Origin: Candidatus Desulfaltia bathyphila
GTDB lineage: Bacteria; Desulfobacterota; Desulfobacteria; Desulfobacterales; ETH-SRB1
Assembly (NCBI GenBank): GCA_014381545.1
Contig: JACNLL010000064.1
Span: 1 to 34,898 of the forward strand
Direction: 5' to 3'
DNA length: 34,898 bases
The notes beneath the pieces are model-generated. The model did no database searches. It had not been told where the DNA came from and saw only the letters and a list, made by a program, of their open reading frames with translations. Positions 2,017 through 34,898 of this stretch are shown piece after piece (the first letter of the stretch is position 1; each line of letters starts with the position of its first letter). The position numbers and the translations under genes are program-made.

Positions 2017-2439
2017 ATGGCTAAAATATTCCGGCCAAGCAGCCGCGAAGCAACCATCTTATCAAAAATAGAGTCTTCAAGGGAATTTGAGCGCAAAAAG
2101 GCAATAAACAGTATAAGAGACTGTATTGAACCTCTTTCCAATGCAATTGCCACAAAGCTTATTGAAAACAATCTCGTTGAAACCACCAATAAAAATGCCC
2201 TCGAAGAGCAGATAATGCAATGTCTTAATAAATTAACCAGAGCTGAAGATTTTGATGTTGACTTTCAGATAGCGCCATTCAGACACATCACACGGAATCC
2301 TAATATTGTAAGCATTTATACTACAGCCTTTGTTGTTGAACAGCTTTTAAAGCACAAGGATGTAGTTGATATTTTCGGTTCCGACGAAGATATATATATC
2401 TGTATAAACCGTCAGGTTGCAAAATTTCTTTCCAAATAA
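2017..2439 (+). CDS. Hypothetical protein coupled to RNase Z-like gene
   Basis: I do not recognise this 140-residue protein. It is soluble-looking, without a signal peptide or membrane segment, rich in Ile, Asn and charged residues, and probably mostly helical. It begins MAKIFRPSSREATILSKIES and ends INRQVAKFLSK. The ATG at 2017 follows AAGGA at a normal distance. Its TAA overlaps the ATG of the downstream metallo-hydrolase by one base, so the two are probably made together and may act together. An inverted repeat TTGCCATT...AATGGCAA (1965-1972 and 1987-1994) precedes it and could be regulatory. Confident as a gene because of the coupling; function unknown. Confidence 0.75.
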   Translation: MAKIFRPSSREATILSKIESSREFERKKAINSIRDCIEPLSNAIATKLIENNLVETTNKNALEEQIMQCLNKLTRAEDFDVDFQIAPFRHITRNPNIVSIYTTAFVVEQLLKHKDVVDIFGSDEDIYICINRQVAKFLSK

Positions 2440-3449
2440 TGCGCTCCTTATTCCATCCCAGGCTAATAAACGGCCCCTTTGAGGACCCTGGCCTGTTCAT
2501 ACCCCTTTTTTTTGAGAAACGCGCCGTAATTTTCGATCTGGGCGACATCTATTCTCTTTCAGCAAAGGATCTTCTCAAAATTAGTCATGTTTTTATATCT
2601 CATACCCATATGGATCATTTTGTGGGCTTTGACAGGCTGCTGCGTCTGTTTTTGGGGCGTGAAAAAAAACTTTATGCGTACGGCCCCAAAGGCTTTTTAA
2701 AAAATGTTGAGGGAAAACTTGCCGGATATTCATGGAACCTTGTAGAAAACTTCTACAATAGATTCTCTCTGCATATTACCGAAGTACATGCCGAGCAGCT
2801 TATAATCAGAGAGTACCAGTGTAAAAATAGATTTACAGCTTCTGGAAAGGCTGTAAAACAGTCGTTTAACGGCATCCTCTTTAAAGAACCTGCGCTGACC
2901 TTCTCTGCAGTAGTGCTTAATCATAAAATTCCGTGCCTTGGGTTTACAATTAAGGAAAGGTTTCACGTTAATATAATAAAAGAGAGGCTGATCGATCTCG
3001 GGCTTGAAATTGGCCCATGGCTTAGAGAATTTAAACAGGCTCTCTTTAATTATCAAGAGCCTGATTCAAAATTTGAGGTTAAACTGGGAGGGGAAAATAT
3101 AAGAAAAAAGGAATTTATATTAGGGGATCTTACGAATCGGATTGCAATAATAACTCCCGGCCAGAAGATTACCTATATTACCGACATGTTATATTGCAAA
3201 CCCAATATTGAAAAGGCGGTGGAATTCGCAAAGGATGCGGACCATCTTTTTATTGAGGCTGCATTTCTCGAAAAAGACAAAGATATCGCCGAAAAAAAAT
3301 TTCATCTCACAGCCAGGAATGCCGGAATGATAGCAGGCATGGCAGGGGTAAAACAGTTCACACTTTTCCATTTTTCACCAAGGTACTCAGGTCAGGAAGA
3401 TCTTTTTCAGGAAGAAGCGCTTGCTGCATATAAAAAGATTAAGGATTAA
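2439..3449 (+). CDS. RNase Z-like metallo-beta-lactamase-fold hydrolase
   Basis: This 336-residue protein has the full metal-binding set of the tRNase Z branch: SHTHMDH (His55, His57, Asp59, His60), His162 in [10 protein letters not shown], Asp249 in YITDMLY, His289 in HLTARNAG and His311 in FHFSPRY. In E. coli RNase Z the matching residues bind two zinc ions and cut the 3' trailer of pre-tRNAs. A tRNA-processing role is likely, but the first motif is SHTHMDH and not the more common SHLHGDH, and the segment between His60 and His162 is divergent, so another phosphodiesterase substrate is possible. It is coupled to the gene before it, and its 3' end overlaps that of rplQ by 4 bases. Confidence 0.8.
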
Positions 3450-4027
3450 ACAGACTTATCCTCTTTTTTATCAACAGCCTGCTTTTTCTCTGCAGTTTTC
3501 TTCTTTCCTGTTTCTACTACCTTTTTCTCTGCAGTTTTCTTCTTTCCTGCTTCTGCTACCTTTTTCTCTGCAGTTTTCTTCTTTCCTGCTCCTGCTGCCT
3601 TTTTCTCTGTTGTTTTCTTCTTTCCTGCACCTGCTGCCTTTTTGTCCTTAGTTTTCTTCTTTTCACTCTTTTCAGCACCTACAAGTTCAATCATAGATAC
3701 AGGAGCGGCATCTCCGGAACGTCTTCCCATCTTAATAATTCTGGTATAGCCTCCGGATATAGAGCCAAATCGCTCAGCAGCTTCATCGAACAGTTTATAA
3801 ACGACCTTCTTTTCTCTTACAATCGAAAGGGCCTGACGTCTGGCATGCAAATCTCCACGTTTGGCCAGAGTAATCAAATGGTCTGCCCAGTGCCTCAAGC
3901 CCTTTGCCTTAGTATCTGTAGTGCGGATTCGCTCATGCTTAAAAAGTGAGGTAACCATATTTCTAAACATGGCATTCCTGTGACTGCTTGTCCTGTTTAA
4001 TTTTAAACCAGCCTTTCGATGTCTCAT
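3446..4027 (-). CDS. rplQ: Ribosomal protein bL17 with repeat tail
   Basis: Residues 1 to about 118 form a normal L17 ([20 protein letters not shown], then [12 protein letters not shown] and GGYTRI), a 50S protein near the tunnel exit. Family members are usually 115-130 residues; this one is 193. The extra 75 residues are almost only Lys, Ala, Glu, Gly and Thr, built from about four copies of a 13-residue unit of the type KKxAxxGKKKTAE. The tail resembles histone H1-like or other basic nucleic-acid-binding tails and may contact rRNA; this is inference. Last gene of the alpha cluster, 9 bases after rpoA, ending tail to tail with the RNase Z-like gene. Confidence 0.95.
3470..3643. repeat. 39-bp tandem repeat in rplQ
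   Basis: Five units of 39 bases lie end to end, read on the + strand as TTTTTCTCTGCAGTTTTCTT followed by a CTTTCCTGCTTCTGCTACC-type half. The unit length is a multiple of three, so copy-number change would leave rplQ in frame. Units nearest the gene body (high coordinates) are the most diverged. This is a coding minisatellite and a candidate for length variation between strains. Confidence 0.85.
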
Positions 4028-4036
4028 AGGATCCCT

Positions 4037-5059
4037 TTACTCCCCTTCCTCTGCGTCTTCCTCAGGAGGCACAAATCCATCAAGCTTCATCCCAAGAGAA
4101 AGGCTCATTTCATTTAAAACTTCCTTGATCTCATTCAACGACTTTCTTCCAAAGTTTTTGGTTTTAAGCATCTCTGCTTCGGTCTTGACAACCAACTGAT
4201 ATATCTTATGTATTCCGGCATTTTTAAGGCAATTGGCGCTTCTAACGGAAAGCTCAAGCTCTTCAACACTTCTATAAAGATTTTCATTAAACTGCGGTTT
4301 CTGCGTCTCTTCCGGCTTTTCCCCCAGCTCCGGCTCAAGCTCTTCGTCAAAATTTATAAAGACTTCCATTTGCTCTTTTAATATCTTGGAGGCATATGCA
4401 ACAGCATCTTCCGGAAGAACGCTTCCATCCGTCCACACCTCTAATGTCAGCTTGTCATAGTCGGTCCTCTGGCCAACACGGGCATTACCCACAACATAGT
4501 TTACCCGTTTAATAGGTGAAAATATAGCATCTATAGGAATTGTGCCTACAGGCGCATCTTCATCCTTATTTGCTTCAGACAACGCATATCCCTTGCCGAC
4601 TTTAACGGTCATGGTCATTTTTAACTTTGCCTTTTTGGAAAGCGTTGCGATATGCAGCTCCGGATTAAGAACCTCACACCTTCCGTCATCGCTGATAATA
4701 TCGCCGGCTTTGACTTCGCCCTCTCCTTTAGCATCAATATGTATTGTTTTCGGTTCAGCATCATCCGGTTTTAAGCGCACACCCTTTAAGTTAAGAATAA
4801 TTTCGGATACATCTTCAAGTATAGCTGGAATAGTACTAAACTCATGCATAACATCATTAAATTTGACAGATACAATAGCCGCACCATATAAGGAAGAAAG
4901 TATTATACGCCTTAAAGAATTTCCGATCGTTATTCCAAATCCTCTTTCCAGAGGTTCACAAACGAACTTGCCATAGGAAGGCGTGCTGGTAGTTGCCTGC
5001 ACCTTCTCCGGCTTTATCATTTCTCGCCAGTTCATAAACATTAGTTCATTTAATGACAT
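4037..5059 (-). CDS. rpoA: RNA polymerase subunit alpha
   Basis: At 340 residues this is standard RpoA. The N-terminal domain, which dimerises and nucleates beta and beta', shows FGITIGNSLRRIILSSLYGA near residue 40. The C-terminal domain (about 265-330: LSVRSANCLKNAGI, LLKTKNFGRKSLNEI-type helix) contacts UP elements and activators. An acidic linker (EELEPELGEKPEE) joins them. It sits 48 bases after rpsD and 9 before rplQ in the alpha cluster. Nothing unusual was seen. Confidence 0.97.
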   Translation of the reverse strand: MSLNELMFMNWREMIKPEKVQATTSTPSYGKFVCEPLERGFGITIGNSLRRIILSSLYGAAIVSVKFNDVMHEFSTIPAILEDVSEIILNLKGVRLKPDDAEPKTIHIDAKGEGEVKAGDIISDDGRCEVLNPELHIATLSKKAKLKMTMTVKVGKGYALSEANKDEDAPVGTIPIDAIFSPIKRVNYVVGNARVGQRTDYDKLTLEVWTDGSVLPEDAVAYASKILKEQMEVFINFDEELEPELGEKPEETQKPQFNENLYRSVEELELSVRSANCLKNAGIHKIYQLVVKTEAEMLKTKNFGRKSLNEIKEVLNEMSLSLGMKLDGFVPPEEDAEEGE

Positions 5060-5107: not shown

Positions 5108-5737
5108 TTACTTGGAATAAAGTTCAACTACAAGCTGCTCCTGCATAGGCATTGTAAGGTCTTCACGCACCGGAAATGCCTTTACTGTTCCTTTCAGCTC
5201 GTCTTTTTCCAGGTCAAGCCATTGAGGAATGCCTCTACGAACCACAGCATCCAGCGAATTAACTATTGCCTGCATTTTACGGCTTTTTTCCCGGGTTTCA
5301 ATTACATCACCAATTTTTATTAAGAACGATGGTATATTAACCTTTTTGCCGTTAATTAGAAAATGATTATGTCTTACAAAGTGACGGCCCTGAGCGCGTG
5401 AGTTCACAAAACCCAAGCGATAAACAATATTATCAAACCGGCGTTCCAATAATGTAAGCAGATTTATGCCTGTAATGCCTCTTTGTCGCTCAGCCCTTTC
5501 AAAAAACAGGTGGAATTGTTTTTCAGAAAGACCATACATACGTTTTATCTTTTGCTTTTCACGAAGCTGTATACCATAGTCTGAGCTTTTTCTTCCGCGA
5601 CGCTGACCATGCTGGCCAGGCGGATAACTACGTCGATCAAAAGCACACTTATCAGAATAGCATCGATCCCCTTTAAGAAATAACTTCAAATTTTCGCGGC
5701 GGCAAAGCCGACAAACCGAACCTATAAATCGTGCCAA
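5108..5737 (-). CDS. rpsD: Ribosomal protein uS4, zinc-binding form
   Basis: The 209 residues match S4, a primary 16S rRNA binder that helps start 30S assembly and, in many bacteria, represses the alpha operon. Cys9, Cys12, Cys26 and Cys31 form a C-x2-C-x13-C-x4-C zinc knuckle as in Thermus and other C+ S4 proteins; E. coli lacks it. The S4 RNA-binding domain ([20 protein letters not shown]) follows at about residues 96-160. It starts 12 bases after rpsK. No S4-binding leader structure was identified here. Confidence 0.97.
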
Positions 5738-6718: not shown

Positions 6719-6905
6719 GGTTCAGCCACAAAGACACTAAGACACCAAGATTATAATATAATTCTTTTAAAATTCATAATTCATAATTTAGGAATTGCGA
6801 ATTTAGGAATTTAGGAATTAAAGGTATTCTATTGATTTTAATTCCTCAATCCCTTAATTCCTCAATTCCTCAATCATATGTGCCTTTGTGACTTAGTGGC
6901 TGAAC
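6719..6905. repeat. AT-rich inverted-repeat element, copy A, nested in outer inverted repeat
   Basis: The inner element (6771-6875) has GGAATTTAGGAATT-type units on the left and AATTCCTCAATTCCTCAA-type units on the right, which are complementary, around the constant centre AAGGTATTCTATTGATTTTA (6821-6840). Outside it lies a second inverted repeat: GTTCAGCCAC at 6720-6729 pairs exactly with GTGGCTGAAC at 6896-6905, and the pairing continues imperfectly inward through ACACTAAG-type sequence. The whole can fold into one long hairpin in the infA-rpmJ spacer. Confidence 0.75.
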
Positions 6906-9901: not shown

Positions 9902-10070
9902 TACGGGTTATTGGTCATTAGTCATTGGTCATAAAATTGAATATTGTCGATTGAATATTTATGGAATCGCTTCGCTTAATTGCGAATTTAGGAATTTGGG
10001 AATTTAGGAATTAAAGGTATTCTATTGATTTTAATCCCTCAATCCCTCAATTCCTTAATCCCTCAATTCC
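9902..10070. repeat. AT-rich inverted-repeat element, copy B, with short direct repeats
   Basis: Between rpmD and rpsE. Left arm from about 9977 with GAATTTAGGAATT-type units, constant centre AAGGTATTCTATTGATTTTA at 10014-10033, right arm of CCCTCAATTCCTTAATCC-type units to 10070. The bases before it (9902-9933) hold ATTGGTCATTAGTCATTGGT, a separate short direct repeat. Family match to copies A, D and E is by the identical 20-base centre. Confidence 0.75.
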
Positions 10071-12174: not shown

Positions 12175-12202
12175 TTTCTTCTCCGTAACATAATATCGTA
12201 AA

Positions 12203-12300
12203 ATTTATAATTTAGGGATTGAGGAATTAAGGGATTGAAGGATGTTGTCACTTTTAATTCCTTAAATTCCTTAATCCCTCAATCCCTAAATCCCTCAATC
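12203..12300. repeat. AT-rich inverted-repeat element, copy C (variant centre)
   Basis: Between rpsN and rpsH. TTTAGGGATTGAGGAATTAA (starting 12211) pairs with the segment ending at 12290; arms of about 32 bases match with few mismatches, the best pairing of the family. The centre is different from copies A, B, D and E (GATGTTGTCACTTTT in place of GTATTCTATTGATTTT), so the arms and not the centre define the family. Confidence 0.75.
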
Positions 12301-13404: not shown

Positions 13405-13420
13405 AAGCCGTTTCTCATAT

Positions 13421-13519
13421 AATTCATAATTTAGGAATTGCGAATTTAGGAATTTAGGAATTGAAGGTATTCTATTGATTTTAATCCCTCAATCCCTTAA
13501 TTCCTTAATTCCTCAATTC
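13421..13519. repeat. AT-rich inverted-repeat element, copy D
   Basis: Between rplX and rplN. Left arm GGAATTGCGAATTTAGGAAT continued by further TTTAGGAATT units, centre AAGGTATTCTATTGATTTTA at 13464-13483 identical to copies A and B, right arm CCTTAATTCCTTAATTCCTC ending at 13519. Arms are complementary for roughly 25 bases with scattered mismatches. Confidence 0.78.
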
Positions 13520-16244: not shown

Positions 16245-16283
16245 AAAACTTTCTCCTGATATCTTGCTTGTTATTCGTTATCA

Positions 16284-16357
16284 TTGCGAATTTAGGAATT
16301 CAGGAATTTAGGAATTGAAGGTATTCTATTAATTTTAATCCCTCAATCCCTCAATTT
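16284..16357. repeat. AT-rich inverted-repeat element, copy E
   Basis: Between rpsS and rplB. Left arm of GCGAATTTAGGAATTCAGGA-type units, centre at 16318-16337 differing from copies A, B and D at one base (ATTAATTTTA for ATTGATTTTA), and a shorter right arm of CCCTCAATCCCTCAATTT that ends 5 bases from the rplB stop codon. Confidence 0.75.
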
Positions 16358-16361
16358 ATAA

Positions 16362-17189
16362 TTATCTTTTTGTACGTTTTTTTACAATATATCGATTGCT
16401 TTTCTTTTTATTACGAGTCTTATAACCCTTTGCAGGTATGCCCCATGGACTGCATGGATGCCGTCCTCCTGATGATCGCCCCTCACCGCCTCCCATTGGA
16501 TGATCAACAGGGTTCATCGCAACTCCTCGCACCTTTGGTCGTCTTCCAAGCCAACGCTTGCGGCCTGCTTTACCCAGAGATATATTTTCATGAACGACAT
16601 TGCCCAGACGCCCTATAGTTGCTTTGCAATTCAACAAAACCATCCGAACTTCGCCTGATGGAAGTTTTATCAGGGCATATCTATCTTCCTTTGCCATTAA
16701 CTGCGCAAATGTTCCGGCGCTTCTTACGATCTGGCCGCCTTTTCCCAAACGCAACTCAATGTTATGAACATGAGTGCCGAGCGGAATGTTTATCAAAGGG
16801 AGAGTATTACCTGGTTTAATATCGGCTTTTGGTCCCGACATAACAGTGTCGCCGACCGAAAGATCGAGCGGCGCCAGAATATACCGTTTTTCACCATCTG
16901 CATAATGCAGAAGAGCAATCCTGGCGCTACGGTTCGGATCATATTCTATTGATGCTACCTTTGCAGGTATTTCCGTTTTATCGCGTTTAAAGTCAATAAT
17001 TCTGTAATGCCGGTTGTGCCCGCCACCACGGTGTCTGCATGTAATACGTCCGTTTGCATTACGCCCGCCTGAATTCCTGATCGGTTTAAGCAGACTTTTT
17101 TCAGGTGTCGTAGTGGTAATCTCATCAAATGTTGAATACACTTGACCTCGTCGTCCAGGAGATGTTGGTTTTACTTTCTTAACCCCCAT
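16362..17189 (-). CDS. rplB: Ribosomal protein uL2
   Basis: L2 supports the peptidyl-transferase centre and subunit joining. From the ATG at 17189, preceded by GAGG at a normal distance, the protein is 275 residues ([20 protein letters not shown]). A GTG four codons earlier overlaps this Shine-Dalgarno and is less likely. The signature region reads [20 protein letters not shown], with the key His kept and Met in place of the second His of the common DHPHGGG. Confidence 0.96.
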
Positions 17190-19218: not shown

Positions 19219-20412
19219 TTATTCAATTATTTCACTTACCACTCCGGCGCCGACAGTCCGACCGCCTTCCCTTATCGCAAACCTCAGCTCCTTCTCCATA
19301 GCTATCGGTGTTATCAAGTCAGCCGTAATGGTTACATTGTCTCCAGGCATAACCATCTCTACTCCCTCCGGCAAAGTTAATATCCCTGTAACATCGGTCG
19401 TCCTGAAATAAAACTGAGGCCGGTATCCATTGAAAAACGGGGTGTGACGACCTCCCTCCTCCTTGCTTAATATATATACCTCAGCCTTAAACTTCGTGTG
19501 CGGCGTTATCGAGCCGGGTATGGCTACTACCTGACCACGCTCAACTTCCTCGCGCTTTGTCCCACGCAATAAAAGCCCTACATTGTCTCCGGCACGACCT
19601 TCATCAAGCAGTTTCCTGAACATCTCAACACCGGTGCAGACCGTCTTCATCGTCGGACGGATACCTATTAGCTCTATTTCATCTCCTACACGAATTATAC
19701 CACGATCAACTCGACCGGTCACAACAGTGCCACGACCCGATATGCTGAATACATCCTCTACAGGCATCAAAAACGGCTTGTCTATATCCCGCTTGGGCTC
19801 AGGTATAAATGTGTCTATGGCTTCCATTAACTCAAATATACACTTGGCCTCATCACTGCCGGGATCATCGCTCTCAAGAGCCTTTAAAGCGCTGCCACGA
19901 ATTATCGGGGTTTCGTCCCCGGGAAACTCATACTTGTCCAATAACTCCCGAAGCTCTAACTCCACAAGCTCTATAAGCTCCTCATCATCCACCATGTCAC
20001 ATTTGTTTAAAAATACTACTATGCTCGGAACACCTACCTGACGAGCTAATAATATGTGCTCACGCGTCTGAGGCATCGGACCATCATCCGCTCCTACCAC
20101 CAATATGGCCCCGTCCATCTGCGCAGCGCCGGTAATCATGTTCTTAATGTAATCCGCATGACCGGGACAATCTACATGCGCATAATGACGATTGTCAGTC
20201 TCATACTCAACATGCGCCGTCGCTATCGTTATGCCACGCTCCTTCTCCTCCGGCGCCTTGTCTATCTGATCAAAGGGCACAAAATCTGCCATGCCCTTTA
20301 ATCCGAGATGCTTCGTTATCGCCGCTGTTAACGTCGTCTTGCCATGATCTATATGACCTATCGTTCCTACATTTACATGCGGCTTAGTCCGATCAAACTT
20401 CTCCTTAGCCAT
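19219..20412 (-). CDS. tuf: Elongation factor Tu, copy 1
   Basis: The 397-residue GTPase delivers aminoacyl-tRNA to the ribosome. G1 is GHIDHGKT (about 19-26), G3 [12 protein letters not shown] (about 81-92), G4 NKCD (about 136-139), and the C-terminal domain has [20 protein letters not shown]. It follows rpsG after 86 bases where fusA normally lies, and precedes rpsJ by 13. The sequence from 19219 to 20225 is the same as the second copy at 33892-34898 at all positions I compared. Confidence 0.98.
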
Positions 20413-33636: not shown

Positions 33637-33712
33637 TGGCAGGCCAGGAGGGATTCGAACCCCCAACACCCGGATTTGGAGTCCGACGCTCTACCGTTAG
33701 AGCTACTGGCCT
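33637..33712 (-). tRNA. tRNA-Trp (anticodon CCA)
   Basis: The 76 bases fold as a full cloverleaf: acceptor AGGCCAG/CTGGCCT, D arm with AGCTCTAACGGTAGAGC, anticodon stem TCGGA/TCCGG with loop CTCCAAA giving CCA, and T arm GGGGGTTCGAATCCCTC-type with GTTCGAATC. The 3' CCA is encoded. It lies between rpmG and secE, a common place in this group, and is likely cut out of the shared transcript. Confidence 0.97.
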
Positions 33713-33891: not shown

Positions 33892-34898
33892 TTATTCAAT
33901 TATTTCACTTACCACTCCGGCGCCGACAGTCCGACCGCCTTCCCTTATCGCAAACCTCAGCTCCTTCTCCATAGCTATCGGTGTTATCAAGTCAGCCGTA
34001 ATGGTTACATTGTCTCCAGGCATAACCATCTCTACTCCCTCCGGCAAAGTTAATATCCCTGTAACATCGGTCGTCCTGAAATAAAACTGAGGCCGGTATC
34101 CATTGAAAAACGGGGTGTGACGACCTCCCTCCTCCTTGCTTAATATATATACCTCAGCCTTAAACTTCGTGTGCGGCGTTATCGAGCCGGGTATGGCTAC
34201 TACCTGACCACGCTCAACTTCCTCGCGCTTTGTCCCACGCAATAAAAGCCCTACATTGTCTCCGGCACGACCTTCATCAAGCAGTTTCCTGAACATCTCA
34301 ACACCGGTGCAGACCGTCTTCATCGTCGGACGGATACCTATTAGCTCTATTTCATCTCCTACACGAATTATACCACGATCAACTCGACCGGTCACAACAG
34401 TGCCACGACCCGATATGCTGAATACATCCTCTACAGGCATCAAAAACGGCTTGTCTATATCCCGCTTGGGCTCAGGTATAAATGTGTCTATGGCTTCCAT
34501 TAACTCAAATATACACTTGGCCTCATCACTGCCGGGATCATCGCTCTCAAGAGCCTTTAAAGCGCTGCCACGAATTATCGGGGTTTCGTCCCCGGGAAAC
34601 TCATACTTGTCCAATAACTCCCGAAGCTCTAACTCCACAAGCTCTATAAGCTCCTCATCATCCACCATGTCACATTTGTTTAAAAATACTACTATGCTCG
34701 GAACACCTACCTGACGAGCTAATAATATGTGCTCACGCGTCTGAGGCATCGGACCATCATCCGCTCCTACCACCAATATGGCCCCGTCCATCTGCGCAGC
34801 GCCGGTAATCATGTTCTTAATGTAATCCGCATGACCGGGACAATCTACATGCGCATAATGACGATTGTCAGTCTCATACTCAACATGCGCCGTCGCTA
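33892..34898 (-). CDS. tuf: Elongation factor Tu, copy 2 (partial, cut by window edge)
   Basis: This covers roughly residues 63-397 of EF-Tu and runs off the right edge; the first ~62 residues lie outside. The visible protein is identical to copy 1, and the DNA matches 19219-20225 at every position compared (offset 14673). The match ends at the stop codon: the first base beyond differs (G at 33891, T at 19218). Two near-identical tuf genes kept alike by gene conversion are usual in proteobacteria. Here this copy leads the tuf-rpmG-tRNA-Trp-secE-nusG group. Confidence 0.97.

Follow-up and report, generated by a model that had tools for sequence, protein, structure and literature searches.

The bL17 gene (rplQ) in the window, by which we mean the whole stretch of 34,898 nucleotides that was analysed, encodes a conserved ribosomal protein core followed by a lysine-rich C-terminal tail of 77 residues, and most of this tail is written by a 39-bp unit repeated in frame. 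The extension has a conserved frame and is typical of the lineage, with a genus-specific 13-residue unit amplified in it. We consider it likely that the protein is an ordinary bL17 carrying a probably disordered extension found across the order, in which a basic proximal segment lies near rRNA and a loose distal end grows and shrinks in frame. The source genome is a 2.07-Mb draft, apparently a MAG, and the window is contig 14 of it. The gene, its two parts and its neighbours are laid out as follows.

2439..3449, plus strand: ribonuclease Z gene (rnz), convergent to rplQ; NF002558 match over the cut-off
3446..4027, minus strand: rplQ, ribosomal protein bL17, 193 aa; open reading frame with the stop codon inside the coordinates; TIGR00059 and PF01196 matches
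3449..3679, minus strand: C-terminal tail of bL17, residues 117-193, 77 aa, 30 Lys, net charge +18
3680..4027, minus strand: conserved bL17 core, residues 1-116; the family matches stop at residue 116
4037..5059, minus strand: rpoA, next gene upstream of rplQ, in the usual order of the alpha operon
5108..5737, minus strand: rpsD, same strand as rplQ

The product passes the curated cut-offs for bL17, with 136.8 bits to TIGR00059 over residues 9-116 (cut-off, 70.05) and 128.8 bits to the Pfam model PF01196 over residues 20-116 (cut-off, 27), and the gene closes the alpha operon, following rpsD and rpoA. The NCBIfam model NF051448, the L17 sunset domain variant, resembles the window protein in having a long C-terminal addition and aligns to its residues 5-184; with 150.3 bits the match stays below the cut-off (280), and membership in that variant was rejected. 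What follows the core is lysine-rich and of low complexity, with 39% Lys over tens of residues beyond position 117 or so. The 77 residues comprise 30 Lys, 12 Asp or Glu, 13 Ala, 7 Gly and 7 Thr, with neither Arg nor Pro. An added basic tail past the ordinary core, as described by an earlier sequence-only reading, is thus borne out, and residue 119, where that reading began it, is as defensible a starting point as the residue 117 that we prefer.

3482..3662, minus strand: tandem array with a 39-bp period, 4.6 copies at 92% matches and free of indels (Tandem Repeats Finder, whole window; a run restricted to the tail DNA gave the same period and copy number, with score 271)
3623..3661, minus strand: array unit 1, 13 aa (numbered from the start codon ATG at 4027)
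3584..3622, minus strand: array unit 2, 13 aa
3545..3583, minus strand: array unit 3, 13 aa
3506..3544, minus strand: array unit 4, 13 aa
3482..3505, minus strand: partial unit 5, KKKTAEKK (8 residues), followed by an 11-residue non-repeat end

Read in frame, the array gives four 13-residue units of the form KKKTxEKKxxxxG and a fifth of eight residues. Its score of 271 (3482-3662) compares with 66 for the next-best array that Tandem Repeats Finder reports in the window. The in-frame repeat of 39 bp had been recognized from the letters alone, and the unit is confirmed; the array had been placed at 3470-3643, and these limits are shifted by 12 and 19 bp. At the Rfam gathering threshold, the window has no match at the array and a single tRNA, at 33640-33712. 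When the tail was used as a query, it matched one place in its own genome and 4 of 193 genomes of the order, all from the same genus, which had four members in that sample. A mobile or dispersed coding repeat is not supported by this pattern of a single match in the source genome and otherwise matches in the same genus only.

Short reads resolve tandem arrays poorly, and the unit number is that of a draft assembly in 107 contigs, which could be taken to mean that the array is mis-assembled or that translation really stops around residue 120. Units 1-4 are, nevertheless, distinguishable, being mutually 77-95% identical, and because they differ from one another, a gross collapse of the array in assembly is argued against. 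At the base composition of the window, 77 successive codons would all escape being stops with a probability of about 0.02, so that the open frame is by itself weak evidence; stronger evidence comes from relatives, in that six congeners carry related tails in an open frame. We hold an artefact of assembly or annotation to be highly improbable.

To place the tail in its lineage, L17 was collected from 58 genomes of the order Desulfobacterales, the window's own included. A gene was found in 54 of these (none in G008, G011, G051 or G055), and all 54 sequences were read. A simple motif rule fixed where each tail starts, and the lengths, which range from 4 to 190 aa with a median of 71, may thus carry an error of one or two residues. 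Tails of at least 20 aa occur in 47 of the 54 genes and tails of at least 75 aa in 25; with one genome taken per family, 33 of 40 have at least 20 aa. In the family to which the window belongs, 17 genomes were searched and L17 was found in 15, each time with a tail of 24-108 aa. The tail is common across both order and family and is therefore a trait of the lineage, not an oddity of one genome. Lysine makes up at least 30% of 18 of the 47 order-sample tails that reach 20 aa; the lysine content of the window tail is high, although not unique.

The phylum was sampled evenly, with 148 genomes, 139 of which gave a match, and lengths were taken from 137 unfragmented sequences (G147, G150 and the second fragment of G141 were left out). 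Open frames in this set have a median of 163 aa, and 103 of the 137 reach at least 140 aa, values that were measured from stop to stop and may overstate the protein length by about 20 aa. Among the best-scoring 30 of the 139 phylum sequences, 16 have tails of at least 20 aa. A length far beyond the usual, as the sequence-only reading had it, does not hold for this lineage on any of these counts in order or phylum. A further set of 64 loci, for which peptide patterns taken from the tail itself served in part as the selection, overlaps the relatives set in some contigs; it was kept out of all frequencies and is used below for arrays only.

Within the genus, seven genomes, one per species and with the window included, have tails of 24, 59, 61, 62, 65, 77 and 108 aa. 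Length variation had been anticipated, between strains, for an in-frame unit, and is seen here between species; an alignment of relatives' genes, which had been proposed as a check, finds a tail of at least 20 aa in every one of the 15 family genes, with the number of units varying in the genus. None of the 15 has a frameshift that ends the protein near residue 120, an outcome that would have spoken against the tail. The shortest tail, 24 aa in G006, stops at residue 140. The intergenic distance on the distal side varies as well. The stop codons of the convergent rnz and rplQ genes have the TTAA at 3446-3449 in common in the window, and the rnz frame reaches the rplQ stop in G000, G004 and G006, three of the six genus members (window included) with a visible neighbour, since the contig of G001 ends too soon for this comparison. 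The two genes are separated by 214 bp in G002, 29 bp in G003 and 52 bp in G005. Small deletions that removed the distal end would be a simple reading, most clearly so for G006.

Copy number of the 39-bp array differs between these relatives, at 4.6 in G000, 3.7 in G003, 2.3 in G001 and 2.5 in G005, and the period is a multiple of three, as expected of an in-frame repeat of variable length. Tandem Repeats Finder detects no array in the genus members G002, G004 and G006, which carry one to three unit-like stretches. Other lineages have arrays of other kinds in the same part of the protein. For instance, the tail of L008, from a sister genus, contains an 87-bp array and that of L024, from another family, a 111-bp array, and the pattern-chosen set adds periods of 36 bp (L036 and L039), 60/63 bp (L046) and 48/63 bp (L089). 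In the case of L036 (Desulfobacteraceae bacterium S08.Bin136), a 36-bp unit encoding AAAGDGLAQKSE-like repeats is present in 4.1 copies with 98% matches; this array, quite different in composition, is probably separate and recent. Arrays with a period of at least 9 were found in 14 of the 54 tails of the relatives set and in none of its 54 cores, and none was found by Tandem Repeats Finder in any of the 64 cores of the pattern-chosen set. Since the unit types are distinct in separate lineages and the cores are free of arrays, the arrays arose separately and in the tail only. Judged by the order genomes searched, the 39-bp unit appears specific to the genus, and other lineages have built different arrays.

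All six arrays that score at least 100 in the relatives set (periods 39, 39, 39, 39, 87 and 111) are divisible by three, as are all eight in the pattern-chosen set, two of which are contigs shared with the relatives set. Taking arrays of all scores, the period is divisible by three in 21 of 28 (relatives set) and 29 of 35 (pattern-chosen set). The view that amplification is in frame is weakened, because the weak arrays are in part out of frame.

Sequence constraint weakens outward from the core. In the 21 pairwise comparisons among the seven congeners, the core has a pN/pS of 0.193 and the 19 residues that open the tail one of 0.485, and pairwise comparison of units 1-4 of the window gives a pS of 0.157, a pN of 0.137 and a pN/pS of 0.87, all from pooled, non-independent counts on little sequence. 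The core is thus the most constrained part, the proximal tail less so and the repeat units least. Units that differ mainly by replacements, tails of 24 to 108 aa inside one genus, and an rnz frame that runs up to the rplQ stop in three members, which fits loss of the distal end (yet one of these three, G004, has a tail of 65 aa), would all be expected if the distal tail were near-neutral filler, that is, slippage-prone low-complexity DNA drifting at a tolerant, exposed C-terminus. The units are, however, not uniformly free. Their KKKTxEKK half has changed less, with 10 replacement differences over 121 sites, than the linker, with 15 over 62, and pure drift would not give the recurring polarity of charge described below. 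We see near-neutral filler as a serious possibility that nonetheless falls short of probable. It overlaps the reading that we prefer, and may be right for the repeats, which are possibly nearly free to vary, and wrong for the proximal segment.

This polarity is the most regular feature of the long tails. In all 39 order-sample tails of at least 50 aa, the 25 residues next to the core have a net positive charge, and the last 25 residues are net negative in 29 and positive in 10. The mean difference between the proximal and distal segments is 8.9 charges, against 0 +/- 0.77 under 2000 shuffles of the residues. Restricting the set to one genome per family leaves 27 tails and a difference of 8.6 charges (shuffles, 0 +/- 0.93, never above 3.2); in 27 of 27 the proximal segment is positive, and more so than the distal one. 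The window tail itself lacks the usual acidic end; its distal end is basic (+4), which makes it one of the 10 of 39 with a positive end. Six long tails are present among the best-scoring 30 sequences of the phylum, and five of the six start basic and five end acidic, L137 being the one that starts acidic. Of the shorter tails, those of 20-49 aa start positive in seven of eight cases, with L117 acidic from the start (-7), and those below 20 aa, found in 7 of the 54 L17 genes, are net negative in five. Given these seven short tails, five of them net negative, and L117, both the tail and its basic start have exceptions. We take the polarity of charge as the best sign of selection on the proximal segment, and such selection would be most simply explained if this segment lay on rRNA.

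A more specific role would be docking, with the tail under selection as a platform at the tunnel exit where chaperones, processing enzymes, the translocon or the membrane could attach. The prevalence of tails of at least 20 aa in the order (47 of 54) is in keeping with such a role, as is the report that bL17 of E. coli makes transient contact with trigger factor near the tunnel (PMC12752688), although the contact described there is in the bL17 core. An alignment consensus has no shared residues past the proximal K-rich stretch, the distal sequence, its length and even the sign of its charge vary, and only 24 tail residues are left in G006, all of which disfavour such a platform. We rate a docking platform as rather unlikely.

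Long, low-complexity tails on bL17 are already in print. In Mycobacterium smegmatis, L17 is reported to have 199 aa, 72 of which form a C-terminal extension, and additional density was described around the tunnel exit (PMC3286452); a different path for the extension, there called an N-terminal segment, is given in PMC7804294. Low-complexity regions of bacterial ribosomal proteins have also been surveyed, and the passages of that survey on which we draw describe neither tandem units nor charge polarity in L17 (PMC6821194). The main texts of ribosome papers on C. acnes (PMC10085706) and M. smegmatis (PMC6133939) have no 'L17' at the start of a word, and the name L17 in PMC3130931 denotes the eukaryotic protein. 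A literature search combining L17, tandem repeat and lysine-rich found nothing, and we make no claim of absence from print. The chain 5o60_O (199 residues), which we take to be M. smegmatis bL17, was aligned for comparison and has a basic run, RARR, in its first 25 tail residues (net charge about +2) and a repeated acidic stretch distally. Like the window protein, it has a long low-complexity tail straight after the core, and its layout, basic first and acidic later, is much like that of most long tails in the Desulfobacterales. The distal part is where they differ, being acidic in the mycobacterial protein, whereas the window tail stays rich in lysine throughout and is built from a 13-aa unit.

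Another comparison is with the actinobacterial HupB and TopA, which, like the window bL17, have a lysine-rich repeated C-terminus on a nucleic-acid-binding protein (PMC5676037, PMC7398561). The C-terminal domain of HupB is reported as indispensable for nucleoid association (PMC5676037), and histone-like proteins and topoisomerases are reported to have lysine-rich regions of low complexity that bind DNA irrespective of its sequence (PMC6821194). On this analogy, bL17 would have a second job in the nucleoid or would tether the ribosome to it. The host protein is a different one, however, and PAKK and KAAK, given as characteristic of the H1/H5 family (PMC5676037), are lacking. A scan for these motifs found none in the 77 residues of the window tail, which has no proline, and found them in the tails of 6 of the 54 members of the relatives set. 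Membership among histone H1/H5-like tails was rejected on this ground, and the resemblance to histone H1 that the sequence-only reading had proposed is not upheld. The acidic end of most long order tails (29 of 39) also disfavours the coating of DNA as a general role. The entry 3j3v_N, presumably L17 of Bacillus subtilis, is a chain of 120 residues. A review relates that B. subtilis L17 binds curved DNA and that, when overproduced in E. coli, it alters nucleoids; the review adds that evidence of a role outside the ribosome has yet to be given (PMC10931766). Because that chain has only 120 residues, the reported binding is independent of a long tail. We find a DNA-binding tail of the HupB or topoisomerase I type very doubtful.

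In the reading that we prefer, the first ~25 residues past the core would form a lysine-rich segment lying, probably, on the rRNA backbone near the site of bL17 at the exit tunnel, and this segment would probably act as an electrostatic anchor next to the core. The distal stretch would be flexible, with a loose selection that acts on composition and not on sequence. In this genus, it would have been built from duplicated copies of the 39-bp (13-aa) unit, through in-frame slippage, which we presume to be the mutational process, or unequal recombination, and it is very short in at least one species. The tail would then also be present in mature ribosomes. As to its conformation, an AlphaFold2 model made with 27 sequences has a mean pLDDT of 55 and a pTM of 0.23, with a core that is poor too; residues 128-187 fall below a pLDDT of 50, and no helix or strand appears after residue 114. 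This low-confidence model is compatible with a disordered tail and no more, and the suggestion of disorder is a weak one. Our confidence in the preferred reading as a whole is slightly lowered, because L117, L137 and the out-of-frame weak arrays were counted against it.

A bolder version can be framed for the order at large, in which long bL17 tails would have a common design that pairs the basic segment with a length-variable brush, usually acidic or of mixed charge. In-frame slippage of units would tune the size and charge of this brush around the tunnel exit, and the brush would thereby regulate, in an evolvable way, access to the nascent chain. We offer this as speculation and believe it unlikely to be correct. 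The case presents a core ribosomal protein with a fast-changing appendage, composed of a conserved core, a charged adjoining segment and a repeat-driven end. If the tail is functional, the length series of 4-190 aa in the order would be a natural test series; if it has no function, it would mark an area on the surface of bacterial ribosomes where evolution is almost unrestrained.

Three other features of the window were observed. A dispersed intergenic element of ~100 bp occurs in the ribosomal protein operon at 6776-6874, 9969-10067, 13419-13517 and 16273-16371, with a diverged one near 12193-12299. It consists of facing runs of 8-bp units, of the type GAATTTAG / AATTCCTC, around a centre, GGAATTNAAGGTATTCTATTNATTTTAAT. 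This centre has 11 occurrences in the genome, four of them in the window, and was present in 6 of 20 genomes searched, all of the same or a sister genus; a reversed control pattern of the centre had 0 occurrences. At 512-1080, a HigB-like toxin gene (PF05015) is followed by that of a helix-turn-helix protein (PF01381), a pair that is likely a type II toxin-antitoxin system. Lastly, the stretches 19219-19518 and 33892-34191, 14.7 kb apart, are identical over 300 bp, and are perhaps, we assume, the two copies of tuf usual in such operons.
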